A DNA stretch of 64,000 nt, from the NCBI RefSeq assembly GCF_011317445.1, contig NZ_JAAAPL010000001.1, forward strand, positions 2,127,001-2,191,000, in the 5' to 3' direction. Made by a program: the position numbers and the translations under genes. The stretch comes from Chelativorans multitrophicus. Its GTDB lineage: Bacteria; Pseudomonadota; Alphaproteobacteria; Rhizobiales; Rhizobiaceae. Below, piece by piece: positions 11,847 to 36,786 of the stretch (the stretch's first letter is position 1; every line of letters begins with the position of its first letter). The notes beneath the pieces were generated by a model that saw only the letters and a list, made by a program, of their open reading frames with translations, made no database searches and had not been told where the DNA came from.

Positions 11847-13027
11847 ACGCGATGGAGATTCCCAAAAGCGACCATGCCGCGAGTACCGCCTCACCCCCGC
11901 TGGATTGCCCGAAGCCGGTTGCCGTCGCGGCCGGGCGGAAAGGGCGCGTCCGCCCAATGGAGCGAAGCGATATCCCCGCAGTCGGCAGGCTTTTCAACTG
12001 CATCTTCAGGAAGGAGAAGAGGGAGGGCAGTCCGGAACTCCATGGTTATCTGGACGCTGCATTCTTCTCCAGCCCGCTTTATGCGCCGGAATACGGCAGC
12101 ATCCTTCATGAGAATGCGGAAGGCGACATCGACAGCGCTGTCCTGTCGATCCCCATGCAGTTTTGGGTCGGCGAGAGGAAGCTTGTCGCACGGCTTCTTT
12201 GCGCCTTCATGGCGAATGGAAAATCCGGCGCGATGGGGGCTGCGCACCTGGCGCGCGTATTGCGCGCTAAGCGGCAGGACTTCACATTTTCCGACAATGC
12301 TTCGCCTGTGAGCGCCGATCATTGGGAAGCCGGAGGCGGCCACACCCTGCCAATTCAAAGCTTGGAATGGCGGCGCGCATTCCGCCCCTTCGCGAGCGCG
12401 CTCGAACGGCTCTTCGCTGCCGTTCCGGCGGCAAAACGCCTTCCGCTGAGGCCGCTCGCGCGGCCATTGGACTGGCTTGCGCGGCGGCTCGTCCACTCCT
12501 TCAAGCCCGCCGCCGAAACGGGCTACCGCATAGAGCCGGCGAGCTTCGAGGAATTTCGGCGGCAGGCAGAAAATCTGCTGAGGCGCTTTTCAGTCCGGCC
12601 CGTCTGGTCGGCTGAGGAATTCTCCTGGCTGATTGGGCTTGCGGGAAAGAATGCCGCCTGCGGCACCTTGAATTGCCGCCGGATTGTGAACAAGGAGGGG
12701 GAGATCATCGGGCTGATGCTCTATTTCGGCCAGCCGAACCGCATCGCCCGAATCCTCAATGTAATCTGTCAGGAAGGAAGCGAGCGGGACGTCATCGATC
12801 AAATGCTCGCCTTCCTCGACGCGGAAGGGTATTGCGAGGCAAGGGGCATGGCCCAACCCTTCTTCATGCGGGCGATGATGCGCCAGCGGCAGCTCACCTT
12901 CAAGCATTCCGGCTATTTTTGCTTCGCAAGCCGCCACCCTGAAATTGTGGAAGCCGCCCTTCACGATGACATCTATATCGGCGGGCTGGCATCGGAACGG
13001 TGGAGCAATCTGGTTGCCGGCCTTTAA
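11843..13027 (+). CDS. GNAT-like acyltransferase-family protein (copy 2)
   Basis: The protein has 394 residues from the GTG at 11843. That GTG overlaps the flippase stop (GTGA) and has AGGGGG about ten bases upstream; the frame is open earlier, but that part lies inside the flippase gene. A disordered lead of about 40 residues precedes VRPMERSDIPAVGRLFNCIF, homologous to copy 1. Shared landmarks are DFTFSDNASPVS and the ending GLASERWSNL. The segment between them is divergent. Position between flippase and chain-length protein suggests modification of the repeat unit, perhaps N- or O-acylation. This is inference. Confidence 0.6.
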   Translation: MNAMEIPKSDHAASTASPPLDCPKPVAVAAGRKGRVRPMERSDIPAVGRLFNCIFRKEKREGSPELHGYLDAAFFSSPLYAPEYGSILHENAEGDIDSAVLSIPMQFWVGERKLVARLLCAFMANGKSGAMGAAHLARVLRAKRQDFTFSDNASPVSADHWEAGGGHTLPIQSLEWRRAFRPFASALERLFAAVPAAKRLPLRPLARPLDWLARRLVHSFKPAAETGYRIEPASFEEFRRQAENLLRRFSVRPVWSAEEFSWLIGLAGKNAACGTLNCRRIVNKEGEIIGLMLYFGQPNRIARILNVICQEGSERDVIDQMLAFLDAEGYCEARGMAQPFFMRAMMRQRQLTFKHSGYFCFASRHPEIVEAALHDDIYIGGLASERWSNLVAGL

Positions 13028-13161
13028 GGACAAAGCATGAAGCGGCGCGGTTTGCCTCAAGAATGACTTAAGATGTAATAAACAATACCGGGATAAAGTG
13101 CCTTAGGGACTTCACTCAAAGTTGCAGCTCCAGATCAAGCAAGGTTTTGCGCAGGTATGGC

Positions 13162-14709
13162 ATGTATGAAGTAGCAAAACCCCCTCGCGGATCGAAGAAG
13201 CCCGGTGGTGCTCCGGCCGCGAAGCCGGCCGCCCGCGGCTCGCTTCTCAACATGCTCCCCAGCGCCGCGCCTGCCATAGAGCCAGCTGAGCCGCCAGTCA
13301 CCCCGCGGCTTCCTGCCAACGAAGCGCGCATTTCCGACTATCTGGAACGCTTTCGCCGCCTCACGCCGGACGATGTGCTCTCATGGCTCGACCGAGGGAA
13401 ATACCTCATTGCCCTGATGGTGCTGCTCGGAGTGGGCCTCGCCCTTGGCTATGCTATCACTGCCACGCCGCGATACACCGTCTACACCGATATCGTGGTC
13501 GACCCGTCCAACCTGCAGGTGGTCGATGACGATGTTTTCGCCAACACGCCGCAGCGCGACACCCAGCTGCTTGAGGTGGAAAGCAAGCTGAGGGTCCTTA
13601 CCTCGCGCAACGTGCTGGAGCGCGTCATCGACGAGCTGAACCTGACGGAAGACCCCGAATTTGTGAAACCGGGCTGGTTTGATCCGATCAAAGAGCTCAT
13701 CTCCGGTCCTCCCGAGGAAGAAGATCTGAAGCTTAGCGTTTTGCGAGCCCTTTCCGAACGTGTTGAAGCGCGCCGCGAAGAGCGTTCCTATGTCGTGGTG
13801 CTCAGCGTCTGGACGGATGACGCCCTCAAGTCGGTCGAAATCTCCAATGCCATCGTGGATGCTTTCGAGACGGAGCTGTTCGAATCCGCCTCACGGAGCG
13901 CTGGCCGCGTTGCCTCCAGCATCAGCCAGCGCCTGGACGAGTTGCGGGCCAGTGTCACGGAAGCGGAGGCGCGCGCGGAAGAATTCAAGCGCGAGAACGA
14001 TCTCCAATCGAGCGGTGACGACCTGGTGAGCGCACGCCGTTCCGGCGAGCTGGACACCCAGGTTTTGGCAGCCCAACAGCGCCAGATCCAGCTCGACACA
14101 CGTTATCGCGAACTCCAGCGGGCTCTGGACGAACGAAGCTCCGCCACCCTGCCCGGCTTCCAATCGGAAACCCTGACGACGCTGCGGGCCCAGTACAACG
14201 ATCTTCAGCAGCAGTTGCAGGCTCTTTCACTCACCTATCTGGACCGGCATCCGCGCCTGCAAGCGATCAGAACCGAAATAGCCTCTGTGGAACGTGCCAT
14301 TGCCGCGGAAGCCCAACGCATCCTCAATGCTGCCAAATCGGAAGCCGACCAGGCGAACATGGTCCTGACTGAACTGCGCCAGAAAGCGCAGGAAGAAGAA
14401 AACACCGTTTTCCAGGACAACAGCGCTCTGGTGACGCTTCGTGAACTGGAACGTGATGCACGCGCGAAGGCCGCGCTTTACGAGACATTCCTTTCGCGCA
14501 GCCAGCAGATCACCGAAAGACAGCAGATCGACACCAGCAATATCCGCGTGATCTCGCGCGCCGTGCCACCGACCTCGCGAAGCTGGCCGCCGCGCACCAT
14601 GATCCTCCTCGCTGCGGGCGCCCTGGCTGGACTCTTCATCGGCCTAGGCTTGGCGCTGGCGCTCGGGCTTCTAAGACATCTGCGCCAGCCGCACCGGTAC
14701 GCCACATGA
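13162..14709 (+). CDS. Wzz/GumC-type polysaccharide chain-length and export protein
   Basis: About 515 residues, with a disordered cytoplasmic N terminus rich in Pro/Ala/Lys. A first transmembrane helix (around LIALMVLLGVGLALGYAI) is followed by a long periplasmic coiled-coil region, then a PPTSRSWPPRTMI lead into the second transmembrane helix. This is the Wzz-GumC architecture without the C-terminal tyrosine-kinase domain of Wzc/ExoP. It sets chain length or bridges to the outer-membrane channel. ATG 13162 is preferred (CAGG six bases before it); TTG 13147 is the longer choice. No partner kinase or Wza-like channel gene is in the window. Confidence 0.85.
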   Translation: MYEVAKPPRGSKKPGGAPAAKPAARGSLLNMLPSAAPAIEPAEPPVTPRLPANEARISDYLERFRRLTPDDVLSWLDRGKYLIALMVLLGVGLALGYAITATPRYTVYTDIVVDPSNLQVVDDDVFANTPQRDTQLLEVESKLRVLTSRNVLERVIDELNLTEDPEFVKPGWFDPIKELISGPPEEEDLKLSVLRALSERVEARREERSYVVVLSVWTDDALKSVEISNAIVDAFETELFESASRSAGRVASSISQRLDELRASVTEAEARAEEFKRENDLQSSGDDLVSARRSGELDTQVLAAQQRQIQLDTRYRELQRALDERSSATLPGFQSETLTTLRAQYNDLQQQLQALSLTYLDRHPRLQAIRTEIASVERAIAAEAQRILNAAKSEADQANMVLTELRQKAQEEENTVFQDNSALVTLRELERDARAKAALYETFLSRSQQITERQQIDTSNIRVISRAVPPTSRSWPPRTMILLAAGALAGLFIGLGLALALGLLRHLRQPHRYAT

Positions 14710-14725
14710 GGCAGGAGCCTGTTCG

Positions 14726-16048
14726 ATGCAGACGGCGCAGCTGACAGCCGTCGATCTGCCGGAAGGAGCGCTTCACACCGCCACGCGAACGGTGCTGTTC
14801 ATGGCGCTGTTCCTGTTCTTCTGGATATCCCTGAACCCGTTTGTCGATCTGACCGGCGCGGCCGTGCTCGACCCGTCCGCGGGAAACTCGAACCGGCTCA
14901 ATCAGATCGTCTCCCTTGGATTATCCGGCCTGATCCTGCTTTTCGGGCTGCTTCATGCACTTCGGAACGAAATCTTCCAGCCGCGCCTCCTTCTCATTCC
15001 GCTTTTCACGTGGTTCCTGTTCGTCTCGGTCCTGTCTAACGAGCCGATGCTGGGAATAAAGGGCGTTGTTCTGGCGATCATCGTGACGATGAACGCCAGC
15101 ATCTATCTCCTTCTTCCTGTTTCGGAGCGGCATTTCGCTAAGATGCTCGCTTTTGGAACGCTGGCGGCACTGGTGCTTTCCTATTACGGCGTCGTTTTTA
15201 AACCGCTCGTGTCCATTCACCAGGCCGCCGAACTGCGGGAGCCGATGAATGCCGGGCTTTGGCGTGGGCATTTCCCGCATAAGAACAGCGCCGCGGCAGC
15301 CATGGTGATCGCCACCTTCTTCGGCCTTTTCGTCATGGCCGCCTGGTCCCGTTTGCTCGGCGCGATCATCGTCATATTGGCGGTATTCTTCCTTTTGCAC
15401 ACGGGAGGGAAGACATCCAGCGCCATGCTTCCGGCCATCCTGATCGTGGCATGGGTGTTCGAACGCTTCCGTTTCCTGCGCGCGCCCATCGCGATAGGGG
15501 GCGTTGCTCTCTTCAATTTGCTGGCTGTTGGTTCGGCCGTGATCAGGCCAGTTGGCGAATTTCTCACGAATCTCGGCATTGACGCGACGTTTACGAACCG
15601 CGCCGATATCTGGCGCTTTGCATTCGAGGCGATTGCGGAGAGCCCTATCGCAGGCTACGGCTTCAAGGGGTTCTGGCAGACGGAAGAACTGGTATATAGC
15701 GGCGGGTCGATCGAGACATGGGCGGTTGCGGCCGCCAACGGGCACAATTCCTTTCTCGATATCACGTTGACGACGGGAATACCGGGACTGGCGCTGACGC
15801 TGATCTGGGTGCTTATTCTTCCCCTTCGCGATATTTCTCGCGTAAGGCCGGAAGAGCAGCACTCTCCGCTGATGCGGCTTTATACCCGCGTTTGGCTGTA
15901 CACTCTTTTCAATGCCGGCCTCGAAAGCCTGTTCTTTGAAGGTGGCAATATGCTCTGGTTCACCTTCATGCTGGCACTTTACGGATTCCGGCTCCAGGCT
16001 TCGGCCTCTACCCGGATTATCCATTCTCGGGCACCAGGGGGAACATAG
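14726..16048 (+). CDS. O-antigen ligase / Wzy-type polymerase family protein
   Basis: A 440-residue protein with ten to twelve predicted membrane helices and a large periplasmic loop. That loop contains LWRGHFPHKNSAA and later GYGFKGFW and AANGHNSFLDI. The conserved HKN and GHNSFLD histidine regions are hallmarks of the Wzy_C/WaaL-type polymerases and ligases. It probably polymerises the flipped repeat units in the periplasm. AGGAGC lies before the ATG. It follows the GumC-like gene by 16 bases and precedes the deacetylase by two, so all are one operon. Confidence 0.85.
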   Translation: MQTAQLTAVDLPEGALHTATRTVLFMALFLFFWISLNPFVDLTGAAVLDPSAGNSNRLNQIVSLGLSGLILLFGLLHALRNEIFQPRLLLIPLFTWFLFVSVLSNEPMLGIKGVVLAIIVTMNASIYLLLPVSERHFAKMLAFGTLAALVLSYYGVVFKPLVSIHQAAELREPMNAGLWRGHFPHKNSAAAAMVIATFFGLFVMAAWSRLLGAIIVILAVFFLLHTGGKTSSAMLPAILIVAWVFERFRFLRAPIAIGGVALFNLLAVGSAVIRPVGEFLTNLGIDATFTNRADIWRFAFEAIAESPIAGYGFKGFWQTEELVYSGGSIETWAVAAANGHNSFLDITLTTGIPGLALTLIWVLILPLRDISRVRPEEQHSPLMRLYTRVWLYTLFNAGLESLFFEGGNMLWFTFMLALYGFRLQASASTRIIHSRAPGGT

Positions 16049-16050
16049 AA

Positions 16051-16824
16051 ATGATGGGGGGGCTCGGAAAAGACACGGGCGAACTGATCGATCGCGCCGT
16101 CAATCGCCTTCTTTGGAAGATGGGAAGCCGGCGCCGAGAGGTGGTCACGGACACGCCACTCGTCACTTTCACCTTCGATGATGTTCCTGACACTGCCCTT
16201 TCGAATGGCGCGGGCATTCTGGAGCGACATGACGCCCGCGGCACATTCTACATTGCCGGCGGCCTCGGCTCCCAGGTGGAGGCGGATCGCACATTGATCT
16301 CACGCGAGGGCTGCCGCGAACTTTCTTTGCGCGGACATGAAATCGGCTGCCATACATTCGCCCACCGCAAGCTCCGCAATCTCGGCGGCGCTCTTCGGGC
16401 GGATTTGACGAGGAACGAGGCCTATCTTCGGGAGGCTGGCGTTGAGCAGCCGATCCGCAACTTTGCCTATCCGTTCAATGCCGCGTGGCCTCCCGCAAGA
16501 CGGGCGCTCCACGCCCGCTATGCGACCTGCAGAGGCGCAGGCGAGGCCATCAATCGCGGCAGCACCGATCATCTGATGCTGAAGGGAGTGGAAATCCGTC
16601 AGCCCGAGACCCATGCGCGCTCACTGACCCGCTGGATTGACGATGTGGCTGCGGAACCGGGATGGCTGGTCTTCTTCACGCACGATATCGCTGAAGTCCC
16701 GACACCTTTCGGCTGCACGCCGGGAACCTTTGAGCACCTGGTTTCCTATGCCGTGGCAAAAGGGTGCCGGATCGTAACGGTCGGTGAGGCCGTTTCGCTG
16801 CTGGGCTGGGAGAATAAGCGGTGA
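16051..16824 (+). CDS. Polysaccharide deacetylase (CE4/NodB-like)
   Basis: A 257-residue protein with the NodB-homology motifs TFTFDD (catalytic Asp and metal Asp, about residues 39-44), HTFAH (metal His pair), FAYPFN and FFTHD. Enzymes of this family remove N- or O-acetyl groups from polysaccharides or intermediates. No signal peptide is visible, so it may act on cytoplasmic lipid-linked precursors. An exposed amino group made here could be the acceptor for the GNAT-like proteins. Its stop overlaps the next gene's GTG start by four bases. Confidence 0.85.
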   Translation: MMGGLGKDTGELIDRAVNRLLWKMGSRRREVVTDTPLVTFTFDDVPDTALSNGAGILERHDARGTFYIAGGLGSQVEADRTLISREGCRELSLRGHEIGCHTFAHRKLRNLGGALRADLTRNEAYLREAGVEQPIRNFAYPFNAAWPPARRALHARYATCRGAGEAINRGSTDHLMLKGVEIRQPETHARSLTRWIDDVAAEPGWLVFFTHDIAEVPTPFGCTPGTFEHLVSYAVAKGCRIVTVGEAVSLLGWENKR

Positions 16825-18101
16825 CACGATCGGTCATCCGGGCTGGCGCGCCGCGCCTCCTGGCCATCAACAACTATTTCTATCGCCGCGGCGGAGCCGA
16901 AGCGGTGTTCTTCGACCACATGGCGCTCTTTGCCGAAATAGGCTGGGATGTCGTTCCTTTCGCGATGAAGCACGAACGGAACGAACCGTCCGAATGGTCC
17001 GACTATTTTGTCTCCGAGATCGAGTACGGCAATCAGCACGGCGTGCTTACAAAAGCTCTGGACGCGGCCAAGGTTATCTATTCCTTCGAGGCGCAGCGTA
17101 AGCTTTCGCAACTTATCGCCGCCGCACCGCCGACAATCGCCCATGCCCATAACGTCTATCACCACCTCTCGCCCGCCATTTTCTCGACGCTGAAGAACGC
17201 CGGCATCCCAGTCGTCATGACGGCGCACGACCTCAAGCTTGCCTGCCCGGCCTACAAGATGCTGCGGCAAGGAATGATCTGCGAACAGTGCAAGGGCGGG
17301 CGTATATACAACGTCGCCCTGAACCGCTGCGTAAAGGACTCCGCTGCCGTCAGCGGCGTCGTTTTTATCGAAACACTGGTGCACAGGTTTCTCGGCCTCT
17401 ACAGAGACAAGATCGACCGCATTGTGGTGCCCAGCCGCTTCTATCGCGAAAAGCTCATCGAATGGGGGTGGCCGGGGGAAAAGCTCGTCTACATTCCCAA
17501 TTTCGTCGACGTTTCGCAGATAAAAACCGGCTGGACCGAGCGGGACTATTTTGTCTATGCGGGCCGCCTCGCGCCTGAAAAGGGCATTGCAACGCTGATC
17601 CGCGCGGCGGCATTGGCCGGGCAAAAACTCCTCATCGCCGGCACCGGTCCCGAGGAAAAAGCGCTGCGCGATCTCGCTCTGGCGAGCGGCGCTGATGTCA
17701 CCTTTGCGGGCTATGTGTCCGGTGAGAAACTTCATAGATTGATTGGCGAGTCGAAGGCGCTGGTTCTGCCCTCCGAATGGTATGAGAATGCCCCGATCAG
17801 CATTCTGGAAGCCTATGCGCTCGGACGGCCGGTGATCGGCTCCGCCATCGGCGGAATACCTGAAATGATCAGGGAAGGAGAGACTGGCCGCACCGCGAAG
17901 GCCGGCTCGCCGGAGGACCTTGCGCGTGCGCTCACGGATTTGGCATCGCTCTCCACGGCAGAGCGCGCGGCCATGGGAATGCGGGGCCGGGATTGGATTT
18001 CCGGCGAATTCTCCGCGGAAGCCTACCGGCAGCGCACGCTTGATCTCTATGCCACGCTTGTCGGCTCGGATTTTGGCGCGGCGAGGCCCTATGGGACCTA
18101 G
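16821..18101 (+). CDS. Glycosyltransferase family 4 (cysteine-containing subgroup)
   Basis: A 426-residue GT-B glycosyltransferase. The N-terminal half holds YFYRRGGAEAVFFDH and HAHNVYHHLSP, then a four-cysteine insert (LACPAYKM, CEQCKGGR, RCVKDS) typical of one subgroup of polysaccharide GT4 enzymes and perhaps metal-binding. The C-terminal Rossmann domain shows YAGRLAPEKG and the nucleotide-binding ENAPISILEAYA motif. It transfers a sugar from a nucleotide donor onto the growing lipid-linked unit; donor and linkage are unknown. The start is GTG inside the deacetylase stop (GTGA overlap). Confidence 0.88.
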   Translation: MTRSVIRAGAPRLLAINNYFYRRGGAEAVFFDHMALFAEIGWDVVPFAMKHERNEPSEWSDYFVSEIEYGNQHGVLTKALDAAKVIYSFEAQRKLSQLIAAAPPTIAHAHNVYHHLSPAIFSTLKNAGIPVVMTAHDLKLACPAYKMLRQGMICEQCKGGRIYNVALNRCVKDSAAVSGVVFIETLVHRFLGLYRDKIDRIVVPSRFYREKLIEWGWPGEKLVYIPNFVDVSQIKTGWTERDYFVYAGRLAPEKGIATLIRAAALAGQKLLIAGTGPEEKALRDLALASGADVTFAGYVSGEKLHRLIGESKALVLPSEWYENAPISILEAYALGRPVIGSAIGGIPEMIREGETGRTAKAGSPEDLARALTDLASLSTAERAAMGMRGRDWISGEFSAEAYRQRTLDLYATLVGSDFGAARPYGT

Positions 18102-18131
18102 CTCAAACGTGTTGCGGTTTAAGGAACATCT

Positions 18132-19400
18132 TTGTTGAAGACGATGGGAAACCCTCCGCAGCCATCACTCAGGGAAGACGCAGTGGCGGGCAATGAGAAG
18201 CCGGCCGACCGGAAGAAGTTTGTCCCAGGACCATCTGGCCACTCCGGTGGCGGTGGCGATCCACGTCCTTCATCCCAATCCACCGGGCGCGTCACGATGC
18301 TTGGCCTGCGCGGCATACCCAATGTGCAAGGCGGGGTCGAACGCCATGTGGAGATACTCGGCCAGGAACTGACGCGGCTTGGCTGGGAAGTTACCGTCAT
18401 CGGGCGCCGTGAATATCTGAAGGAGAAAAAGCCGGTGGTCTGGGACGGCATTAGGGTAGTGCCCCTCTGGTCGCCCAGGCGAGTGGCGTTTGAAGCCGCG
18501 GTTCATACATTCCTCGGTGTCCTTTATTCGGCGTTTCGCCGTCCTGACATCTTGCATATCCACGCAATCGGCCCCTCGCTGATGGTGCCGCTGGCCCGGC
18601 TTTTGGGCCTGAAGGTGGTCGTAACCCACCATGGCTTCGACTACGACAGGCAGAAATGGGGGGCCTTTGCAAAAAGAATGCTGAGGCTCGGCGAGGCATT
18701 CGGCATGAAGTTCGCCAACCGGCGGATAGCAGTTGCCGCCGGCGTCGCACATACGATGCAGCTTCAGTATGACGTTCCCGTCAGCTTTATACCCAATGGC
18801 GTGGCGATTCACGCCTCGGAGGGTGGAACCGAAGCGCTCGAGCATTTCGGATTGACGAGACGGAACTATATTCTGACGGTGGCCCGGCTGGTTCCCGAGA
18901 AGCGGCAGACGGACCTGATCGAAGCCTTTGCAAGGCTCAAGCCGAATACGTGCAAGCTGGTGATCGTCGGCGGCAGTGATTTCGCAACACCTTATTCCAA
19001 AGAGGTCGAGAAGAGAGCGCGCCAAGTTCCCGGTGTTGTCATGACCGGTTTCCAGAGCGGGGGCAACCTGGCCGCTCTGTTTTCGAATGCAGCTCTCTTC
19101 ATCCTCCCGTCGAGCCACGAAGGCATGCCGATCGCGCTTCTCGAAGCGCTTGGCTATGGGCTGCCGGTTCTTGCAAGCGACATTCCCGCCAATCTCGAAG
19201 TGGGTCTTCCTCCCGAAGACTACTTCCCCTTGGGCAATATCGATGCCCTGGCGGCAGCGATCGAACGCAAGCTCGCCGAGCTCTACCTCCCGGAGGAAGG
19301 ACGCCAGCGTGCGCGGCGCATCGAAGAGCAATATGGCTGGTCCTCCATTGCGGAGCGGACCGCGGTCGTTTATCGCTCGCTGTTTCCCCATCAACAATAA
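18132..19400 (+). CDS. Glycosyltransferase family 4 with DUF1972-like N-terminal domain
   Basis: A 422-residue glycosyltransferase with a variable lead of about 50 residues before TMLGLRGIPNVQGGVERHVE, the opening seen in RgpA-like rhamnosyl/glucosyl transferases. Later motifs are THHGFDYDRQKW, TVARLVPEKRQ and SSHEGMPIALLEALGYG, the donor-binding E-x7-E region. TTG at 18132 was chosen because AAGGA sits six bases upstream; the first ATG is at 18144. It probably adds one residue of the repeat unit. Confidence 0.86.
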   Translation: MLKTMGNPPQPSLREDAVAGNEKPADRKKFVPGPSGHSGGGGDPRPSSQSTGRVTMLGLRGIPNVQGGVERHVEILGQELTRLGWEVTVIGRREYLKEKKPVVWDGIRVVPLWSPRRVAFEAAVHTFLGVLYSAFRRPDILHIHAIGPSLMVPLARLLGLKVVVTHHGFDYDRQKWGAFAKRMLRLGEAFGMKFANRRIAVAAGVAHTMQLQYDVPVSFIPNGVAIHASEGGTEALEHFGLTRRNYILTVARLVPEKRQTDLIEAFARLKPNTCKLVIVGGSDFATPYSKEVEKRARQVPGVVMTGFQSGGNLAALFSNAALFILPSSHEGMPIALLEALGYGLPVLASDIPANLEVGLPPEDYFPLGNIDALAAAIERKLAELYLPEEGRQRARRIEEQYGWSSIAERTAVVYRSLFPHQQ

Positions 19401-19409
19401 CGAGAATAG

Positions 19410-19832
19410 ATGCGCCTTACGGACGAAACACAGACTTTATCGGGAAGCGCCAGGGCACCGCGTCCGGCGCAAAGACTGCTCGATTGGGCTCGGATGGCAG
19501 CGCCATTCCTGATTTTGGCAGTCATCCTCTATTCCACATTGTCACCTCTGGATATGCGGCCGCGCACGGGATTTCCGCCCCATTTCGAGCACTTCCTGGC
19601 CTTTGCCCTGCTTGGCGGCCTCTATGCCATTGCTTTCCCGAGGCGCATCCTTCTCATCCTGTTCGCCATTGTGCTGGCCGCCGCCGGGCTTGAGCTTCTA
19701 CAACTGACGCTGACGGACCGTCATGCTCGCTTCGCCGATTTTGCCATAAAGCTCATGGGTGGAATCGTGGGCGGAACTGGCGTCTGGTTTGTGCTGCGCC
19801 TTTTTGCCCGATTCCGACTTGCTGGGAGATAG
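19410..19832 (+). CDS. VanZ-like membrane protein
   Basis: A 140-residue protein with four hydrophobic segments, a SPLDMRP turn after the first, and the conserved polar HFEHFLAFALLGG in the second. The following G-L-E-L-L-Q-L region and RHARFADFAIKLMGG turn are typical VanZ-like features. Such proteins occur in many exopolysaccharide loci; their activity there is not established. It sits between two glycosyltransferase genes, two bases before the next start, and belongs to the same operon. Confidence 0.75.
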   Translation: MRLTDETQTLSGSARAPRPAQRLLDWARMAAPFLILAVILYSTLSPLDMRPRTGFPPHFEHFLAFALLGGLYAIAFPRRILLILFAIVLAAAGLELLQLTLTDRHARFADFAIKLMGGIVGGTGVWFVLRLFARFRLAGR

Positions 19833-19834
19833 GC

Positions 19835-20830
19835 TTGTCGGTCAGCATCATCATCAAGACGCTCAACGAGGAAAAGCGCATCGCATCCACCATTGAGCAC
19901 GCCCTGGCTGGCCTGCCGGGTGGCCTGGGTGAGGTGATTGTTGCCGACAGTGGCTCCACTGATCGGACAGCCGAGATCGTCTCGCACTATCCGGTGACCA
20001 TGGTGCAGATCATCGATCCCGCAAAGCCCAGCTGCGGCCTAGGCGGCCAGCTTGGCTTCCAATATGCGCGATACGATCTGATCTGCCTTCTCGATGGCGA
20101 CATGGATCTCGAACCCAGCTTCCTTCCGGACGCGATCAATTACCTGCAAAACCATACCGACGTGGCGGGAGTGACCGGTCATGTCCAGGAGATGAACCTT
20201 TCGAACCTGGAATTCTCCCGCCGCGTAACGCGCAACGCGCCGGAAAACCGCGTCGGCGAAATCGACCGAATGAACGGCGGCGGGCTTTACCGCCGCGCGG
20301 CTATTGAGAGTATCGGCTACCTGACCGACCGGAATCTGCATGGCTATGAGGAATTCGATCTCGGCATCCGCCTGCGCAATGCCGGATGGCGGCTCGTCCG
20401 CCTCGACAGGCGCTTCGTGCAGCATTACGGCCATGTCGAAAATTCCTATCGGCTGCTCGTCAGGCGCTGGAAGAGCAAATATCTGTTCGGCATTGGCGAA
20501 TTGCTGCGTGCGGCAATGGGCAAGCCCCACTTCCTTTGCCTCCTGAAGGAGCTGCCTGAGCTGCGCCTCTGGGGGCTCGTGCTGGCATGGATGGTCTTTG
20601 CGCTGGCGCTTCTGGTCGTTCTACCGAATAAGCTTCTGGCGCTCGGCATCGTGCTTGCGACGTTCGCCTTTGCCGTGGCGGTCATGTCTCTGCGCAAAGG
20701 CGGCTTGGCAATGGGACTTTACGTCGTGGTGGCCTGGTTTTTCCACGCGGCGGCGCTACCCGTCGGGTTTCTCCGCTCACGTGTCGATCCGAAGGCATGG
20801 GTTGAAAGCCGAAAGCTGAACGAAGGTTGA
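19835..20830 (+). CDS. Membrane-associated glycosyltransferase family 2
   Basis: A 331-residue GT-A enzyme. SVSIIIKTLNEEKRI opens the fold, ADSGSTDRTAEI binds the nucleotide, and LLDGDMDLE supplies the metal-binding D-x-D. HGYEEFDLGIRLRNAGW is the acceptor-side motif, and three C-terminal hydrophobic helices anchor it to the membrane. It starts with TTG at 19835, three bases after the VanZ stop, and ends the plus-strand operon. It converges on the NadE-like gene about 23 bases away. Confidence 0.88.
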   Translation: MSVSIIIKTLNEEKRIASTIEHALAGLPGGLGEVIVADSGSTDRTAEIVSHYPVTMVQIIDPAKPSCGLGGQLGFQYARYDLICLLDGDMDLEPSFLPDAINYLQNHTDVAGVTGHVQEMNLSNLEFSRRVTRNAPENRVGEIDRMNGGGLYRRAAIESIGYLTDRNLHGYEEFDLGIRLRNAGWRLVRLDRRFVQHYGHVENSYRLLVRRWKSKYLFGIGELLRAAMGKPHFLCLLKELPELRLWGLVLAWMVFALALLVVLPNKLLALGIVLATFAFAVAVMSLRKGGLAMGLYVVVAWFFHAAALPVGFLRSRVDPKAWVESRKLNEG

Positions 20831-20853
20831 GCGGCCTCCCCTAGCGTAGCTTT

Positions 20854-21846
20854 TCAGGCGCCGACCTCTGACACCTTATCGACGAGCAGCGGCGGGAGGT
20901 GAAGATAGCGCGTCGCCTTGCGCTTCGCGGCGACATCAGCCCATACACTCTGCAACTGCTCTTCGGTGAGTGAGGCCGCCGCGGCAACGGCGCTCGCCGG
21001 AAGGCCATGGTTGAGGCCGTAGAGGCAGAGGTCCATCCGGTCATAGGGCAGCGAGAAGTAGAATTCCTCCTGCGTCTGGGCGAGCGAATAGGTGTCGGTC
21101 GTCGGCGGGCGGCGGCAGATCACCTCCGGCACGCCGAGATATTCGGCAAGCTGGTAGACCTGTGACTTATAAAGATGTGCGATGGGCTTCACATCGGCAG
21201 CACCATCGCCGTTCTTAACGAAGAAGCCCTGATCGTATTCCAGCCGGTTCGGCGTGCCGAGCACGGCGAAGTTCAGCCGGTCGGCGTGGTAATACTCGAT
21301 CTGCTTGCGCGTGCGCTGCTTCATATTGGTGGCGGCGACAATGCCGAGATAGACCTCCGGCGTCATCCGATGCCTGCTCTGGTTCCCCTCTGGGTCCTGC
21401 ACCACAAGCCAGGAGATGTTGTAGGCCGCACCTTCAAGCGCGTTGGAGATGACGATCTTGGACGCCCAGCCGGGACCGTAGTCCGGCACGAGCTTGCGGA
21501 TGAAGCCGTCGCGCCGCTCATAGCAACCAATCGCTCTGAGCGCAGGACCAATATCTTCCACGATGCCTTCAATCCCGAAGGTGTTCGTGAGCAGCCGGCC
21601 GAGCTCAAGGCTCTCGGGATCGGAATCATTCTCGGGCATGAACAGGCAGCAGACATTCTTCGCGCCGACTGCTCTGACTGCGAGCGCGGTGGAAACGCTG
21701 GAATCGATGCCGCCGGAGACGCCCAGCACCAGCCCACGCTTGCGCAGCGAGCGGAGCTGCTCGCGGAGAGCGGCCACGATCCGTTCCACCTCGGCGGCGG
21801 GATCTATGGCGAGAGTGGCGACGGAAAAAGGCGCAGTGGAGTTCAT
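20854..21846 (-). CDS. NadE-like ATP pyrophosphatase (NAD synthase family)
   Basis: A 330-residue cytoplasmic enzyme with the PP-loop SGGIDSS (44-50) and NadE-like FVKNGDGAADVKPIAHLYKSQV. It lacks a glutaminase domain, so it would use free ammonia or ammonia from a partner. The C-terminal part (PTTDTYSLAQTQEEFYFSLPYDRMDL) differs from the WPGQTDE-type segment of canonical ammonia-dependent NadE, marking a separate clade. It is last in an operon after asnB, an acyl carrier protein and an acyl ligase. That context suggests it adenylates and amidates a specialised substrate rather than deamido-NAD, though true NAD synthase activity is not excluded. Confidence 0.75.
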   Translation of the reverse strand: MNSTAPFSVATLAIDPAAEVERIVAALREQLRSLRKRGLVLGVSGGIDSSVSTALAVRAVGAKNVCCLFMPENDSDPESLELGRLLTNTFGIEGIVEDIGPALRAIGCYERRDGFIRKLVPDYGPGWASKIVISNALEGAAYNISWLVVQDPEGNQSRHRMTPEVYLGIVAATNMKQRTRKQIEYYHADRLNFAVLGTPNRLEYDQGFFVKNGDGAADVKPIAHLYKSQVYQLAEYLGVPEVICRRPPTTDTYSLAQTQEEFYFSLPYDRMDLCLYGLNHGLPASAVAAAASLTEEQLQSVWADVAAKRKATRYLHLPPLLVDKVSEVGA

Positions 21847-23387
21847 TCGGCTGGCTCTATGGTTTCGGCGGCGAGCCTGCGGCTCACCTTGCCCGTGTCG
21901 GTCTTCGGCAGTTCAGTGACGAATTTCACGATCTTGGGTACCATGAAATCCTCCAGATGCTGCGAGCAGTGGCGGATAACCTCGCGCTCGGTCAGCGCGG
22001 GATCCCTGGAGACGACCATGGCGGCGATGGCCTGCCCGAGCACCGGGTCGACAACCCCCGCCACGACGGCCTCTGCAATGGAAGGATGGGTGTGAAGCAC
22101 CGCTTCCACTTCCTTGGGCGCGACCTTCTCGCCGCGCGTTTTGATGATGTCGTCCTTGCGCCCGACGAAGTAGAGAAAGCCATCGGCATCCATGCGGAAG
22201 AGATCGCCCGTGTAGAGCACCTTTTCCCACGGATTAAGGCCGGGGCGCAGCATCTTCACCGTCGCCTTGTCGTTGCGCCAATAGCCCTTCATGACATGCG
22301 GGCCCCGGATGACGAGTTCGCCCACCTCGCCGGGCGGGACCGGCTTACCGTCATCATCCACCACAAAGGCTTCCGTATTGGGGATGGCGATGCCGACCGA
22401 ATCGGGCCGCCGATCAAGCTCTTCCGGCGGCAGGTAGGTGCAGCGCTTGCACTCGGTGAGCCCGTACATGGAATAAAGCTCGATGCCAGGGCACAGCTCG
22501 CGCAGCCTGGCGATATGTGGCGGCGGAAGCGCGGCGGCGGTGTTGGTGATGTAGCGCAGCGTGGGCAGGAAGCCGGGCTCCAGATCGCGCATCTGCAGGA
22601 TCATCGCCGCCATGGTCGGCACAAGCGGAAAGCCGGTTACGTTTTCCTTCCGCATCAGATCGAAGATGGCATGCGGGAAGGCGAAGGATTTTTCCAGCAC
22701 CAGCGTGGCGCCCATCTTGACCGACATCAGGAGCTGATAAAGCCCATAGTCGAAAGCGAGCGGCAACACGTTGAGGATGATGTCATCGGGCCTGTTGCGC
22801 AGATAGGTGGTGATGGATGTGGCCGCAGCTTCGATATTGCGATGCGTCATCATCACACCCTTGGGCCGGCCGGTGGAGCCCGATGTGTAGATGAGCATGG
22901 CGAGATCGACATCGATGCCGCGATGGGCGACCGGCGCCGGCTCGGCCTCAAGGCACTGCGTAAAAGATACCGTACCGTCCGGTACGGTACCGCCCCGGCC
23001 TTCTGTGGAGATCAGAAGAAGCGGCTGGCCGTGAAGCGCGCGCGCCTCGGCCGCGACCGGCATTAGCTTGGCCTGCGTGAGGATTGCGGCAGCCTCGCAG
23101 TTGCCGATGATGTAGGCGAGCTTTTCCGCCTTTGTGGAGGCGTTGATGGGGCTGAAGGTGGCGCCGGCCTTGAGGACAGCGAAGATGGAGACCGCCGCCT
23201 CCCACGCATTGTCCATGAAGATGAGCACGCGGTCGTTGCGCCGCACGCCGTTAGCCGCGAGCGCCGCTGCAAGGCGGTCCGTCAGCGCGTCGAACTCGCC
23301 ATAGCTGAGCCGCGTGGACCCGCTCACGAGAGCGGTCTTTTCCCCGTAGCGCGAGGCGCTGCCCCGCAGGAATTCTTCGACACGCAT
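21843..23387 (-). CDS. AMP-forming acyl-CoA/acyl-ACP ligase
   Basis: A 514-residue adenylate-forming enzyme. It has the P-loop TSGSTGRPKG (168-177), YSMYGLTEC (A5-type), YTGDLFRMDADGF, and the hinge/catalytic region KTRGEKVAPKEVE followed by a C-terminal domain with TDTGKVSR (catalytic Lys). It activates a carboxylic acid as the adenylate and transfers it to a thiol. With an acyl carrier protein gene about 20 bases upstream, that thiol is probably phosphopantetheine on the ACP. It overlaps the NadE-like gene by four bases. The acid is unknown. Confidence 0.87.
   Translation of the reverse strand: MRVEEFLRGSASRYGEKTALVSGSTRLSYGEFDALTDRLAAALAANGVRRNDRVLIFMDNAWEAAVSIFAVLKAGATFSPINASTKAEKLAYIIGNCEAAAILTQAKLMPVAAEARALHGQPLLLISTEGRGGTVPDGTVSFTQCLEAEPAPVAHRGIDVDLAMLIYTSGSTGRPKGVMMTHRNIEAAATSITTYLRNRPDDIILNVLPLAFDYGLYQLLMSVKMGATLVLEKSFAFPHAIFDLMRKENVTGFPLVPTMAAMILQMRDLEPGFLPTLRYITNTAAALPPPHIARLRELCPGIELYSMYGLTECKRCTYLPPEELDRRPDSVGIAIPNTEAFVVDDDGKPVPPGEVGELVIRGPHVMKGYWRNDKATVKMLRPGLNPWEKVLYTGDLFRMDADGFLYFVGRKDDIIKTRGEKVAPKEVEAVLHTHPSIAEAVVAGVVDPVLGQAIAAMVVSRDPALTEREVIRHCSQHLEDFMVPKIVKFVTELPKTDTGKVSRRLAAETIEPAE
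22968..22989. repeat. 22-base near-perfect palindrome inside the acyl ligase gene
   Basis: TACCGTACCG and CGGTACGGTA flank a two-base TC spacer, giving ten-base arms. It encodes part of residues 131-141 (RGGTVPDGTVS), in a surface region upstream of the P-loop. It may be an inserted short palindrome or a protein-level turn duplication. Confidence 0.7.
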
Positions 23388-23407
23388 CCCGGCCTCCAGC
23401 CTTCCGC

Positions 23408-23677
23408 TCAGGCGTTAAGCGATTCCTTGCCAGTCTTCGTGCTGACGAAGGCTGTGATACGGTCAAGGGAATCGAGATTGGCGGGAACGATCTCGGCGTC
23501 CGCCATAGTCACGCCGAAGCGCTCCTCGATAAAAGCGACCAATTCCAGCACCCCGGTAGAATCGATGACATCGTTCTCGATGAGAGATGCGTCATCATCG
23601 ATCTGGGCGGAGGTGTCTCCGAACAGGAAATTCTCGACGATGAAGGCCCTGACCTGATCCTTGATGCTGCCTGCCAT
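23408..23677 (-). CDS. Acyl carrier protein
   Basis: An 89-residue acidic four-helix carrier protein. ENDVIDSTGVLELVAFIEE contains the phosphopantetheine-accepting Ser40 in DSTGVLEL, a variant of the common DSL motif. ATG 23677 has GGAG seven bases upstream and is chosen over a TTG four codons earlier. It lies between asnB (13 bases upstream) and the acyl ligase, so it most likely carries the acid activated by that ligase. It is not linked to fatty-acid synthesis genes. Confidence 0.92.
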   Translation of the reverse strand: MAGSIKDQVRAFIVENFLFGDTSAQIDDDASLIENDVIDSTGVLELVAFIEERFGVTMADAEIVPANLDSLDRITAFVSTKTGKESLNA

Positions 23678-23689
23678 TCCAATCTCCAA

Positions 23690-25630
23690 TTATGCCGCCT
23701 CGACGGCGCGAATGCGTGAACCGGTGAAGGTCTCCAGCCATAGCTGGGACGAAAGGATGCCGACAAAAGCGGCATTGTCGCGAAAGCCGGAAAGCGGCTG
23801 CTGACGGCTCTTGGCGAAGAGTTTGGACACGGATGCCGGGTTGAAAAGTCCGCAGTCGGCAAGTTTTTCCGCACTCATCGCCTCGCGGACATAGTCCTTC
23901 TCGCCCGCTCCGCGGAATGAGGCGCTGTCGGGCGCACGGTATGGCTGCTTGGTGCGGCGCAGGATCGATTCCGGGAGGAGGCCCTTGGTCGCCTCGCGCA
24001 GAATGTGCTTTTCGACCAGGCCCTTCAGCTTCATCTCCGGCGGCAGGGTGGTGGCGAACTCAACCAGCCGGTGATCGAGGAAGGGGAAGCGCCCTTCGAT
24101 GCCGTGTGCCATGGCCATGCGGTCGCCCTGGCTGGAAAGGATGTAGCCGGGGAGCAGGAAGCGGGACTCCAGATATTGCGCCTGATGCAGCGGATGCCAG
24201 CGGGGAAACTCCTGCGGCAGGCGTGAGGCAAGCTCCTCCGCCGCATCGTAACCGGCCAATGTCTCGCGCAGCTGGGCGGAGAAGAAGAGCTTGGCCGCAC
24301 CCGTCGCGCGCATGCGGGGCTTGTGCGAGAAGAGCGGATCATCGAGCGAATCCGCGCCCGCACCGAAAAAGGCGGCGAGATATTCGGCCGATTGCTGCTT
24401 GAGCCCGGGCAGATAAGGGTAGAGCTTGCGGAAGAGATGCGGACGCATGCGCGAGCCGGGCTGGCGCGCGCAGAAGCGGCGCACCCGCGCCTCCTTGAAG
24501 ATGTCGTAGCCGGCGAAGACCTCGTCGGCCCCCTCGCCCGTGAGCACCACTTTCAGGCCCCTTTCGCGCACCAGCGCCGAAAGCTTGAAGAGCGGGGCGG
24601 GCGCGGTGCGCAGGATCGGCCTTTCGGTAAAACGGATCACATCGGGGAAAACCGCGGCGATGTCACCGTCGCCGCAATTGACGGAGGCATGCATTGTGCC
24701 AAGTGCTGCCGCCACCTCGTTTTGGAAGGCACTCTCATCGTGCTCGGCGCTTTCGAACGCAACGGAGAAGGTGCGCAGGATCTCCGGCGTCATGCCGGCC
24801 GCCAGCGCCGAGATCACGGAGGAGTCGAGGCCGCCCGAAAGATAGGAGCCAACCGGCACGTCGGCGCGCATGCGCAGCCGTGTCGCGTCGGTGAGCAGTG
24901 CCCGCAGCTCTTCCGCCACGGCGCGCTCATCCGTGTGGCGGCTGGGCGCGCCATGTTCCGGGAAAGAAAGCGACCAGTAGGGCCGGATCGCCTGGCGCCC
25001 TTCCTCGACGAGCATCATGTGCCCGGGCTCAAGCTCGTGAATGTTCTTGAAGGCGGTGCGGGGAGCTATGGGCGCCCAGAGCGTGAACATCTGGTCGAGC
25101 GCGAACGGATCCATCTCCGCCTCGACACCCGGCACCTGCAGGAGCGTTTTGACTTCCGAAGCGAAGAAGAGCCGGTCGCCCACGCTCGTATAGAAGAGCG
25201 GACGCACGCCCATGCGGTCGCGTGCAAGAAACATGCGGCGGCGTGGCGCATCCCAGATGGCGAAAGCGAAATCGCCGTTCAGGTCGGCAAGGCAGTCCGG
25301 TCCCTTCTCGTCATAGAGATGGAGGATGACTTCCGTGTCGCTCGCAGTGCGGAAGGTGCGGCCGCGGGCGATCAGCGCCTCGCGCAATTCCACGTAATTG
25401 AAGATCTCGCCGTTGAAGGCGATGGTGAGCCTGCCGCCATCAAGAGACATAGGCTGCTGGCCGTCGGCAAGACCGACGATGGAAAGGCGCGTATGGCAAA
25501 GGCCCGCACCATCGAGTACGGCGGTGCCGCGCTCGTCCGGCCCGCGATGGGCGATGGCCGAGGCCATCCGCCGCAAAAGCGGTTCCGCCTCAGAAACGCC
25601 CGCGCCGAAATATCCGCCGAACCCGCACAA
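23690..25630 (-). CDS. asnB: Asparagine synthase-type glutamine amidotransferase
   Basis: The 646-residue protein has an N-terminal glutaminase domain beginning MCGFGG with the Cys2 nucleophile, and NGEIFNY plus SDTE motifs. A C-terminal synthetase domain carries the ATP pyrophosphatase loop SGGLDSS (265-271), and GEGADEVFAGY follows. Housekeeping AsnB makes asparagine. Homologues in polysaccharide and exosortase-associated loci are thought to amidate other carboxylates. Leading an operon with an ACP, a ligase and a NadE-like enzyme, it is more likely to supply nitrogen for a modified acyl or sugar group. Asparagine synthesis cannot be ruled out. Confidence 0.88.
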   Translation of the reverse strand: MCGFGGYFGAGVSEAEPLLRRMASAIAHRGPDERGTAVLDGAGLCHTRLSIVGLADGQQPMSLDGGRLTIAFNGEIFNYVELREALIARGRTFRTASDTEVILHLYDEKGPDCLADLNGDFAFAIWDAPRRRMFLARDRMGVRPLFYTSVGDRLFFASEVKTLLQVPGVEAEMDPFALDQMFTLWAPIAPRTAFKNIHELEPGHMMLVEEGRQAIRPYWSLSFPEHGAPSRHTDERAVAEELRALLTDATRLRMRADVPVGSYLSGGLDSSVISALAAGMTPEILRTFSVAFESAEHDESAFQNEVAAALGTMHASVNCGDGDIAAVFPDVIRFTERPILRTAPAPLFKLSALVRERGLKVVLTGEGADEVFAGYDIFKEARVRRFCARQPGSRMRPHLFRKLYPYLPGLKQQSAEYLAAFFGAGADSLDDPLFSHKPRMRATGAAKLFFSAQLRETLAGYDAAEELASRLPQEFPRWHPLHQAQYLESRFLLPGYILSSQGDRMAMAHGIEGRFPFLDHRLVEFATTLPPEMKLKGLVEKHILREATKGLLPESILRRTKQPYRAPDSASFRGAGEKDYVREAMSAEKLADCGLFNPASVSKLFAKSRQQPLSGFRDNAAFVGILSSQLWLETFTGSRIRAVEAA

Positions 25631-25878
25631 ACTCCAAATGCCCCCATTCTGCTACCGGGCCGAGGACGCACGAGCCTCGACCGGGGCTGCCAACTGGCAA
25701 CTCCCATAGCATGCATTCAAAGAATGTGCCGTAAAGAAAAACTTGGAAAGTTTGTTAATGCGAGCCGGGGGCTGATCACGAGATCTCCGGCGGCAATAGG
25801 CGCCGGAGTTGGGCTCGGGGACAGTGGAAGCGGGCGAGCTTAGGGTCCGCTCGCCCGCTCAGTCGACCACAAATTGGG

Positions 25879-26988
25879 CTATACAGCGGCCTCCTTGAGC
25901 ACGCCGCGGCGGATCTGGTCTTCTTCGATGGATTCGAAAAGGGCGCGGAAGTTGCCTTCTCCGAAGCCCTCGTCACCCTTCCTCTGGATGAACTCGAAGA
26001 AGATCGGGCCGATAACGGTTTTGGAGAATATCTGCAGCAGGATCTTCGTCATGCCGCCATTCACCACGCCTTCGCCATCGATCAGAATGCCGTATTTCTT
26101 CATGCGCTCGATCGGCTCCGAATGACCGGCCACGCGCTGGAACGATCTCTCGTAATAGACATCCGGGGGGCCGGGCATGAATTTCAGCCCATTATCGGCC
26201 AGCCGATCGGTGGCATCGTAGATGTGTTCCGTTCCCACCGCGATATGCTGGATGCCCTCGCCCTTGTACTTCTTCAAATATTCGACGATCTGGCTTGTCT
26301 CGTCCTTGGATTCGTTCAGCGGAATACGGATCTTGCCGCAGGGGCTGGTGATAGCGCGGCTTACAAGGCCGGTAATGCGACCGTCGATATCGAAATAGTG
26401 GATTTGCTTGAACCCGAACAGATCCCGGTAGAAGGCCCACCACTTGTCCATATTGCCGCGATAGACATTGTGGGTCAGGTGGTCGAGATAGTAGAAGCCG
26501 ACGCCTTCCGGCTTCGGGTTGCGCTCGCCCAGCCACTCGAACTCGTCCTCATAGGCGGAGCCCTTAGCGCCATACCGCTCGATGAAATAGAGAAGCGATC
26601 CGCCAATGCCGACGATGGCCGGCACATCCAGCACCTTGTCTTTGCCTTCATAGGGCTGAGCGCCCTTTGAAACGGCGTGGTCAAAAGCGTGCCTGGCATC
26701 CACCACGCGCCATGCCATGGAGGACGCACAAGGCCCATGCTCTTCCACGAAGCGAGAAGCGTGGGAGCCGGGCTCTGCATTTACGATATAGTTGATATCG
26801 CCCTGCCGCCAAACGGTGACATTCTTGGTCCGGTGCTTGGCGACCGCGACAAAGCCCATACGACCGAACAACTCAGCGAGCTTTTCCGGCTCCGGATGGG
26901 CAAATTCCACAAACTCGAAACCGTCAGTACCAGCCGGATTTTCCGGGCTGATGGTGGCGGGCGGCGCATCATGTGGAAAGGGTCCCAT
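25879..26988 (-). CDS. hppD: 4-hydroxyphenylpyruvate dioxygenase
   Basis: The 369-residue non-haem iron enzyme converts 4-hydroxyphenylpyruvate to homogentisate in tyrosine breakdown. Two vicinal-oxygen-chelate domains are visible. Iron-ligand regions are LDHLTHNVYRG (first His), GIQHIAVGTEHIY (second His) and the C-terminal glutamate in FFEFIQRKGDEGFGEGNF. The ending FGEGNFRALFESIE is diagnostic. The gene is divergent from an Lrp/AsnC regulator across about 120 bases, the usual arrangement in rhizobia. Confidence 0.97.
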   Translation of the reverse strand: MGPFPHDAPPATISPENPAGTDGFEFVEFAHPEPEKLAELFGRMGFVAVAKHRTKNVTVWRQGDINYIVNAEPGSHASRFVEEHGPCASSMAWRVVDARHAFDHAVSKGAQPYEGKDKVLDVPAIVGIGGSLLYFIERYGAKGSAYEDEFEWLGERNPKPEGVGFYYLDHLTHNVYRGNMDKWWAFYRDLFGFKQIHYFDIDGRITGLVSRAITSPCGKIRIPLNESKDETSQIVEYLKKYKGEGIQHIAVGTEHIYDATDRLADNGLKFMPGPPDVYYERSFQRVAGHSEPIERMKKYGILIDGEGVVNGGMTKILLQIFSKTVIGPIFFEFIQRKGDEGFGEGNFRALFESIEEDQIRRGVLKEAAV

Positions 26989-35671: not shown

Positions 35672-36138
35672 TCCCGATGAGGACTGATTGAGAACGATGG
35701 CCAAGCCGATCCGAACATGGCCTGGGAATCCCGCTGAGTTTGAGTTTTACTCGGAGGAGCGATTTTCAGCAACGCGTGTGCTCATCGGTCCCCAGCGGCG
35801 GCGATAAGGCCACGCTTGGCCTCGCATGTCGAGCATGAAGATCGAAGAGGACCGGCCGGCCGCCATTGGCACACTTCGGGCACAGAAATCGGCGGCGGCC
35901 GCGAATCCGGCTCCGACTCGTGGAAGGCTTACATGCGCCGGGCGACGAATACGGTGAATTACTCCACCGCTCTGCCGCTCGCCCAGGGCGTGTCCTTCGA
36001 CATCGCCTAGCACATGAAGATAGAGCTCACCGAGGGAGCGGACATCCGGCGCGCTTCCGCTTCGCCCGGAATCGGAATTTGCAAAATCCTGCTATTCTCG
36101 CCAACGCAGCGGCTGTGCAACGGGGGGTCCGCCGGCGG
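35672..36138. other. Non-coding or decayed stretch upstream of the PQQ operon
   Basis: No open frame here looks like a real gene on either strand. A short plus-strand frame (35932-36010) ending near [11 protein letters not shown] faintly recalls the C terminus of an enoyl-CoA hydratase, but it is too short to assign. The promoter of the minus-strand ABC/PQQ operon should lie in the first 200 bases. Confidence 0.5.
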
Positions 36139-36528: not shown

Positions 36529-36786
36529 AGGGTCTCTGGGCTCCTGCCAGCCGCCAGCCCTTAGAACCACGCCCGCGAGACTGTGACCAGTTCGCCGCGG
36601 ATCGCCTTAAGCGCAACTCGGCCTCGAACTATGCTGAAAACAGCCTGCGTGTCCGCACCCCGGATCGCCCTTCTCATCGGGCGATCCATCTTATGCCCCG
36701 CCTCAGAAACCGGCACCCCATTCAGTGCGAGGATCAGGTGCCTCCCCCTAAGCGCCTATCGAACTATTCGCTGCCTATTCAGACGA

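Follow-up and report, generated by a model that had tools for sequence, protein, structure and literature searches.

Four genes in a tight operon on the minus strand of a 64,000-nucleotide stretch of Chelativorans multitrophicus DNA (contig NZ_JAAAPL010000001.1, positions 2,127,001-2,191,000; hereafter the window, to whose positions coordinates refer unless a locus or contig is named) encode an AsnB-type amidotransferase, a carrier protein, an adenylating ligase and a NadE-like ATP pyrophosphatase. The quartet is a conserved set of genes that keeps its catalytic motifs intact, stands apart from its housekeeping paralogues and is linked to polysaccharide loci. The cassette is real, widespread and undescribed as far as a literature search shows, the search having found no description of it while most subscription journals lay outside its reach. 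It is probable that the operon serves carrier-protein chemistry rather than housekeeping, and the reading preferred here, which is held tentatively and at somewhat less than even confidence, is that of a dedicated polysaccharide-decoration cassette in which an amide is built on the carrier and moved to a surface polysaccharide.

The operon and its conservation

The asnB and carrier genes abut, the carrier and ligase genes are 20 bp apart and the ligase and NadE-like genes overlap by 4 bp (Table 1). The start codon of asnB is TTG, with the codon for Cys2 next; with a strict search pattern, 89 of 94 AsnB relatives have Cys2 directly after the start codon, and three of the remaining five start MCG or MCA. 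AsnB matches Pfam Asn_synthase (334 bits) and GATase_7, and the ligase AMP-binding (326 bits) and AMP-binding_C. The carrier, for which the gene caller used here preferred an ATG at 23677 as the start, gave no Pfam match at E <= 0.001 and matches NCBIfam carrier models, the best of them NF052616 at 58.7 bits, under its cut-off of 130; the top two models originate in the ornithine-lipid and cispentacin pathways. A search of 20600-26000 for sigma-70-type promoters gave no match, and terminator-like sites in the same interval numbered 6 against 4.4 expected.

In named genomes, a genome-neighbourhood survey of the NadE-like clade kept the best 80 of 403 NadE-like relatives, with flanks fetched up to 10 kb. 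All 80 of these loci have ligase, carrier and asnB genes in the flanks, coded on the same strand as the NadE-like gene; the loci come nearly all from Rhizobiales and so are not independent. A sample of 398 genomes drawn from the phylum contained 15 in which the subfamily model NF002048 was over its cut-off, and in 13 of the 14 other genomes of that set all three partners accompanied the NadE-like gene, locus L047 being without asnB. In a class-level sample (369 genomes of the class of genome G246, with G246 and G282 shared with the first sample) 18 genomes had the NadE-like gene at E <= 1e-60, and the fetched region held all three partners in 13, the carrier in 17, asnB in 15 and the ligase in 14. 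At L163 the contig starts 0.7 kb before the carrier and asnB was not seen, L166 and L167 have no ligase in the fetched region, L173 has the NadE-like gene and the carrier only, and the NadE-like protein of L177 is a 172-residue fragment with an internal stop. Of the three partners it is the carrier that accompanies the NadE-like gene most constantly, and the grouping of the quartet is far above chance.

Gene order, read at 111 loci with a simple gene caller of our own (B, asnB; A, carrier; L, ligase; N, NadE-like; T, thioesterase; g, GNAT), was BALN in 87, TNBLA in five, gBALN in four, BALNT, BLAN and BAN in two each, and one of nine single types in the remainder; the order changes and the membership of the cassette is constant. 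In some lineages thioesterase-domain genes join the quartet (L041:2500-5112, L046:12962-15694, L042:10483-11448 and L051:8791-9513), and those of L041 and L046 are fused to a second adenylation domain. The HPPD gene that lies upstream on the same strand (25879-26988) was rejected as a member, a homologue having been found in the flanks of one of the 80 named loci and none of the 14 others.

An earlier note on this DNA, made from the sequence alone, had proposed a tight four-gene operon on the minus strand with these enzyme assignments, which the gene coordinates and the Pfam and NCBIfam matches confirm, and its idea of an acid activated on a carrier and amidated is supported as a reading. The neighbourhood survey that it had suggested gave the co-occurrence reported above. 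Its set of four genes stands as far as the quartet goes; the conserved set is bigger, and the HemK-type methyltransferase and tandem-GNAT protein described below had been missed.

Two side observations concern the distribution of the quartet. A record titled Bacillus subtilis SK6B4 (L132) carries it with a NadE-like protein 72% identical to that of the window, and is probably a mislabelled or contaminated assembly. A plasmid search with the distant NadE-like protein of L049 again gave 116 records with identical genus counts and nothing more distant.

The NadE-like protein and the housekeeping alternative

The NadE-like protein scores 527.2 bits against NF002048 (cut-off 313) and is therefore a member of that subfamily; it also matches Pfam NAD_synthase at 162.9 bits (cut-off 21), with the PP-loop SGGIDSS kept. 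Two NadE equivalog models are missed, NF010587 at 168 against 255 bits and NF001979 at 102.7 against 250 bits. The predicted model (pLDDT 79.5, with residues 250-263 and some ends below 50) has the fold of NAD synthetase. An insert at residues 127-165, which forms three strands in the model, is absent from the seven housekeeping sequences aligned with it; the motif VK[NQ]GDG occurs in 14 of 14 NadE-like sequences, compared with TK[YF]GDG in six of the seven housekeeping ones, and PT[TS]DT takes the place of PTADL, PSAGL, PTDGL or PSAEL.

It might be supposed that the operon holds an extra NAD synthetase lying, by chance, next to an additional asparagine synthetase. The NadE-like protein does exceed the cut-offs of both Pfam NAD_synthase and TIGR00552, and public annotated records name its gene nadE, NAD(+) synthase. 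However, the insert and changed motifs set it apart, its subfamily is tied to a carrier gene and found in only 15 of the 398 genomes, and the same genome has two clear other NAD synthetase genes, at C1:82960 (257 bits, nearly the full profile, in a 572-residue frame) and C1:12565 (85 bits), two further and weak NAD_synthase matches, and another asparagine synthase at C1:1587103 (311 bits). The earlier note had allowed that the operon would be mostly housekeeping if its NadE and its asnB were the only ones in the genome, and neither is. Housekeeping was accordingly rejected as the leading reading and is considered highly improbable.

Two further partners

The HemK/PrmC-family protein scores 151.2 bits against TIGR00536 hemK_fam, over the cut-off of 115.5, and misses that of the PrmC model TIGR03534 (181.9 against 199.1), its match beginning at profile position 52 of 253; a full-length HemK-family gene elsewhere in the genome (C12:139021) is presumably PrmC. 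Of the 80 named loci 53 have a homologue close to the quartet, as have six of the 14 others, and in two distant genomes (L163 and L171) the gene is inside the operon, between the ligase and NadE-like genes. In a tree of 35 proteins, 17 of the 60 locus-associated homologues and the two in-operon ones form one clade (support 100/99) that excludes the remaining 16 HemK-family proteins, drawn from the same genomes and from others. The NPPY motif, which in HemK enzymes touches the glutamine amide, is kept in all 60 of the locus homologues. A profile of the clade found three of the 369 class-level genomes at E <= 1e-62, namely the two in-operon cases and G593, in which the NadE-like gene is not over its cut-off.

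For the protein encoded next to it a Pfam scan gave no match. Its AlphaFold2 model (pLDDT 88) resembles N-myristoyltransferase (Foldseek E 1.3e-13) and Eis2 (2.9e-12) at TM values of about 0.5-0.58, and it is a putative member of the GNAT superfamily by this fold-level match, with two such domains in tandem. Of the 80 named loci, 75 have a homologue in the neighbourhood of the quartet, and in 52 of those 75 it is <=500 bp from the NadE-like gene.

Polysaccharide context

The region between these two genes and the operon is occupied by a polysaccharide locus on the plus strand (10494-20830). It is convergent with the operon, so that the two are not one transcription unit.

Table 1. Features of the window that belong to the cassette or to the adjoining polysaccharide locus
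Feature	Position	Strand	Remarks
asnB, AsnB-type glutamine-dependent amidotransferase	23690-25630	minus	646 amino acids; Cys2 and SGGLDSS loop intact
Acyl/peptidyl carrier protein	23408-23689	minus	DSTG phosphopantetheine site
Adenylating ligase	21843-23387	minus	514 amino acids; AMP-binding family
NadE-like ATP pyrophosphatase (NF002048/PRK00876)	20854-21846	minus	330 amino acids; NAD synthetase fold
HemK/PrmC-family methyltransferase paralogue	9516-10220	minus	NPPY motif; without PrmC N-terminal part
Tandem-GNAT protein (putative)	8404-9519	minus	Fold match; 4-bp overlap with methyltransferase gene
Wzx-like flippase (Polysacc_synt)	10494-11846	plus	Profile match
Second protein related to the tandem-GNAT protein (paralogue)	11957-13027	plus	Within polysaccharide locus
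Wzz/GumC-like chain-length protein	13147-14709	plus	Profile match
O-antigen ligase/Wzy_C-family protein	14726-16048	plus	Profile match
Polysaccharide deacetylase	16051-16824	plus	Best NCBIfam model holdfast deacetylase HfsH, 161 bits; cut-off of 400 missed
Two GT4 glycosyltransferases, VanZ-like protein, GT2 glycosyltransferase	16821-20830	plus	Locus end

The flanks of 43 of the 80 named loci contain at least one homologue of the polysaccharide genes of the window, and those of 37 at least three. In several Rhizobiales loci the Wzx, Wzz, Wzy and deacetylase genes stay near the quartet. On pSymB of Sinorhizobium meliloti R14 the order is asnB, carrier, ligase and nadE, then minCDE, and farther on come the tandem-GNAT gene (annotated as hypothetical), a methyltransferase, a GNAT, a DHDPS-family gene, GumC, an O-antigen ligase and a polysaccharide deacetylase; our own gene calls within the stretch fetched from pSymB of strain 1021 (NC_003078.1) give a similar layout. 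Passages in three papers (PMC5748678, PMC4182512, PMC4581636) cite Jofre and Becker 2009 on SMb21506, which may be the GumC-like gene of the S. meliloti locus.

A number of side observations were made at these loci and in the window. The DHDPS-family aldolase gene (PF00701) lies between the GNAT and GumC-like genes at L161:36798-37718 in strain 1021 and is annotated also in L160; it might supply an acid in Sinorhizobium, and no such gene was seen in the polysaccharide locus of the window. In L173 (837-3088 and 9020-10290) the NadE-like/carrier pair is about 6 kb from genes that look, by eye, like NeuB- and NeuC-type genes of sialic or legionaminic acid synthesis. Small glyoxalase/VOC-type genes are found near the quartet at L168:1864-2274 (by scan) and L170:2722-3138 (by eye). 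Elsewhere in the window, two neighbouring proteins with similar signal-peptide-like starts (45942-46940 and 47361-48410) have no Pfam match, and about 2.4 kb (35671-38069) is without a called gene, tRNA or Rfam match.

Relation to exosortase-type loci

Ligase, carrier and amidotransferase genes are also found in loci of the exosortase (XrtA/PEP-CTERM) system, for which the models used were TIGR03098 (ligase), TIGR03108 (amidotransferase), TIGR03006 (deacetylase), TIGR03019 (FemAB) and TIGR03099 (pyridoxal phosphate (PLP) decarboxylase), with thresholds of E <= 1e-70 for TIGR03006 and E <= 1e-80 for TIGR03099 in genome scans. A search of the C. multitrophicus genome with PF09721 found no exosortase, whereas four of six other genomes examined had a match, and its best match to TIGR03099 reached 199.3 bits against a cut-off of 478.45. 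The TIGR03006 deacetylase occurs in 12 of the 18 class-level genomes with the NadE-like gene, compared with 93 of 369 overall (hypergeometric P = 0.00017), and the fetched region of eight of the 18 has a homologue immediately upstream of the quartet. Beside the quartets of L165 and L166, two loci of another class than the window's, is a gene that passes the cut-off of FemAB TIGR03019. L169 has a gene near the hydrolase model TIGR03101, under its cut-off, and comes from a genome without a TIGR03006 match.

The absence of an exosortase here, and the polysaccharide link, had both been put forward in the earlier note and hold, the latter through the named loci as well as the deacetylase. Its suggestion that the NadE-like partner separates the locus from exosortase-type sets does not hold; such a partner was rejected as a mark of exosortase-free loci by its co-occurrence with TIGR03006.

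The ligase lends itself to comparison between the two kinds of locus. At the presumed specificity positions of nonribosomal peptide synthetases (GrsA numbering, with the core Asp aligned with LgrA) the window ligase has the pocket code D Y Y P I N M R C K. In the first survey, Arg occupies the position of GrsA 330 in every one of the 95 ligases, and 83 have the core Asp. Of 20 loci read around the TIGR03099 decarboxylase, 19 have a ligase next to it, and these decarboxylase-side ligases have both residues in 19 of 19 and the code D Y S A x N M R S K in 16 of 19. The pocket suggests an amino acid substrate. No particular substrate was named from it, on account of the presumed numbering and of the occurrence of Arg 330 in both types of ligase.

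Proposed pathway and its alternatives

The constancy with which a carrier accompanies the NadE-like enzyme leads us to propose a carrier-bound substrate. After the ligase comes the NadE-like gene here and a PLP decarboxylase in some exosortase-system loci, a hint that the same free carboxylate may be processed in two ways. In the decoration pathway the ligase would adenylate an amino acid with a second carboxylate and load it on the carrier; the NadE-like enzyme would then adenylate the remaining free carboxylate and amidate it with ammonia; the HemK-type enzyme, where present, might methylate the amide nitrogen, an amide product being one that would suit it; and the tandem-GNAT protein (a FemAB-type protein in some exosortase-type loci) would transfer the residue to a polysaccharide amine exposed by the deacetylase. 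AsnB could make the same or a second amide, or amidate a uronic acid of the polymer. In the window the deacetylase and the tandem-GNAT protein would provide acceptor and transferase.

The last of the roles suggested for AsnB leads to an alternative in which AsnB acts on the polymer to form a uronamide, in the manner of WbpS, and the ligase, carrier and NadE-like enzyme make a separate acyl or aminoacyl substituent, with no common substrate. When an asnB-like gene in a PEP-CTERM-type cluster of Rubrivivax gelatinosus was mutated, aggregation and the form of the colonies changed, and the authors liken the gene to that for WbpS, a uronamide maker (PMC3684757). The loss of asnB from L047 and L173, where the carrier and NadE-like genes are kept, would also fit. 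Against this, asnB adjoins the carrier gene in BALN, the commonest order (87 of 111), and a division of labour of this kind seems doubtful.

A second alternative, raised for a small diffusible molecule in the earlier note too, is that the product is a diffusible small molecule or a lipid, such as an aminoacyl amide that a thioesterase sets free, and that the polysaccharide genes are close by through shared regulation or chance. It would account for the thioesterase-domain genes of L041, L046, L042 and L051 and the orders TNBLA and BALNT, for the pathways from which the two best carrier models come, and for the 37 of 80 named loci that have no polysaccharide gene of the window in flanks of <=10 kb. 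The excess of the XrtA deacetylase in the class-level genomes and the Rhizobiales loci in which Wzx, Wzz, Wzy and deacetylase genes are nearby argue the other way, and such a product is considered unlikely.

The decoration reading has itself to be weighed against a number of observations, of which the 37 loci just mentioned are one. The NadE-like protein exceeds the TIGR00552 nadE cut-off (142.8 against 63.65) and keeps the PP-loop, so that NAD synthesis is still compatible with its sequence. The core Asp is missing from 12 of the 95 ligases, and since Arg 330 is common also to decarboxylase-type ligases this residue identifies no substrate. The tandem-GNAT homologue occurs in only three of the 14 other genomes, runs opposite to the NadE-like gene in 72 of the 75 named loci that have it and in the window is about 11 kb from that gene, across the polysaccharide locus. 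No HemK-type gene was seen at 27 of the 80 named loci or in eight of the 14 others, and only two of the 18 class-level genomes with the NadE-like gene have one, a patchiness that makes methylation at most optional. In G657 the quartet adjoins an XrtA deacetylase, yet an exosortase search gave no match. The NadE-like gene and the XrtA decarboxylase do not strictly exclude each other: the 93 genomes with TIGR03006 divide into one with both, 11 with the NadE-like gene only, 29 with the decarboxylase only and 52 with neither (Fisher p = 0.095), and the genome with both, G683, has them about 40 kb apart on one contig. The swap is a tendency, and a lead rather than a result. All the substrates, the order of the steps and the product are inferred.

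A more specific form of the decoration reading is that relatives of both NAD synthetase and the release-factor glutamine methyltransferase have been recruited to carrier-protein chemistry, the first amidating the carboxyl left free on a carrier-bound dicarboxylic amino acid and the second methylating the amide nitrogen. The outcome would be an N-methyl-(iso)glutaminyl or (iso)asparaginyl group on an amino sugar of the polysaccharide, with the decarboxylase removing the same carboxyl in other exosortase-type loci, so that one ligase/carrier chassis would yield two kinds of substituent. This is speculative and, taken as a whole, improbable; what the two recruited enzymes would predict is concrete, namely an N-methyl amide formed while the residue is on the carrier.

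Implications

Polysaccharide modification is the likeliest role for the enzyme of a gene that is labelled NAD(+) synthase, which bears on annotation and on metabolic models in the genera with relatives, including Sinorhizobium, Ensifer, Mesorhizobium, Shinella and Azospirillum. The model symbiont S. meliloti 1021 carries the quartet on pSymB, so that a role in surface polysaccharide is directly testable. The cassette offers an entry to the ligase, carrier and amidotransferase genes, so far unexplained, of polysaccharide loci of the exosortase kind. It also points to another kind of HemK-family methyltransferase.

Comparison with known systems

The NH3-dependent NAD synthetases (PDB 2e18, 3fiu) share with the NadE-like protein the fold, the PP-loop and several motifs, and differ from it in lacking the insert at 127-165, in the motifs that are altered and in having no constant carrier-gene partner. 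Likewise, the HemK-type protein has the NPPY motif of the N5-glutamine methyltransferases PrmC and PrmB and is over the hemK_fam cut-off, but it is under the PrmC cut-off, is without the N-terminal part and belongs to a clade of its own.

In butirosin synthesis (BtrI/BtrJ/BtrK) glutamate is loaded via one carboxyl on a carrier and the other is handled by a PLP decarboxylase. By analogy this may serve as a model for sets of ligase, carrier and decarboxylase, and for the present cassette if amidation replaces decarboxylation, although butirosin is a small molecule and not a polysaccharide. The modification of the Caulobacter holdfast by the deacetylase HfsH and the GNAT protein HfsK offers another possible parallel, the window deacetylase being nearest to HfsH and having tandem-GNAT proteins alongside; the HfsK authors (PMC5362036) proposed a similar deacetylase/GNAT scheme for the holdfast.

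The closest comparison is with the XrtA system. Amongst system-specific models the window ligase and AsnB score best with TIGR03098 and TIGR03108, but both miss the cut-offs (460.9 against 592.35 and 450.5 against 816.9, respectively), and pockets are partly common to the window ligase and the XrtA-type ligases. The difference here is that a NadE-like gene follows the ligase and that HemK-type and tandem-GNAT partners are found. The cassette is regarded as a version of the ligase/carrier/amidotransferase module of exosortase-type loci to which two enzymes have been recruited.

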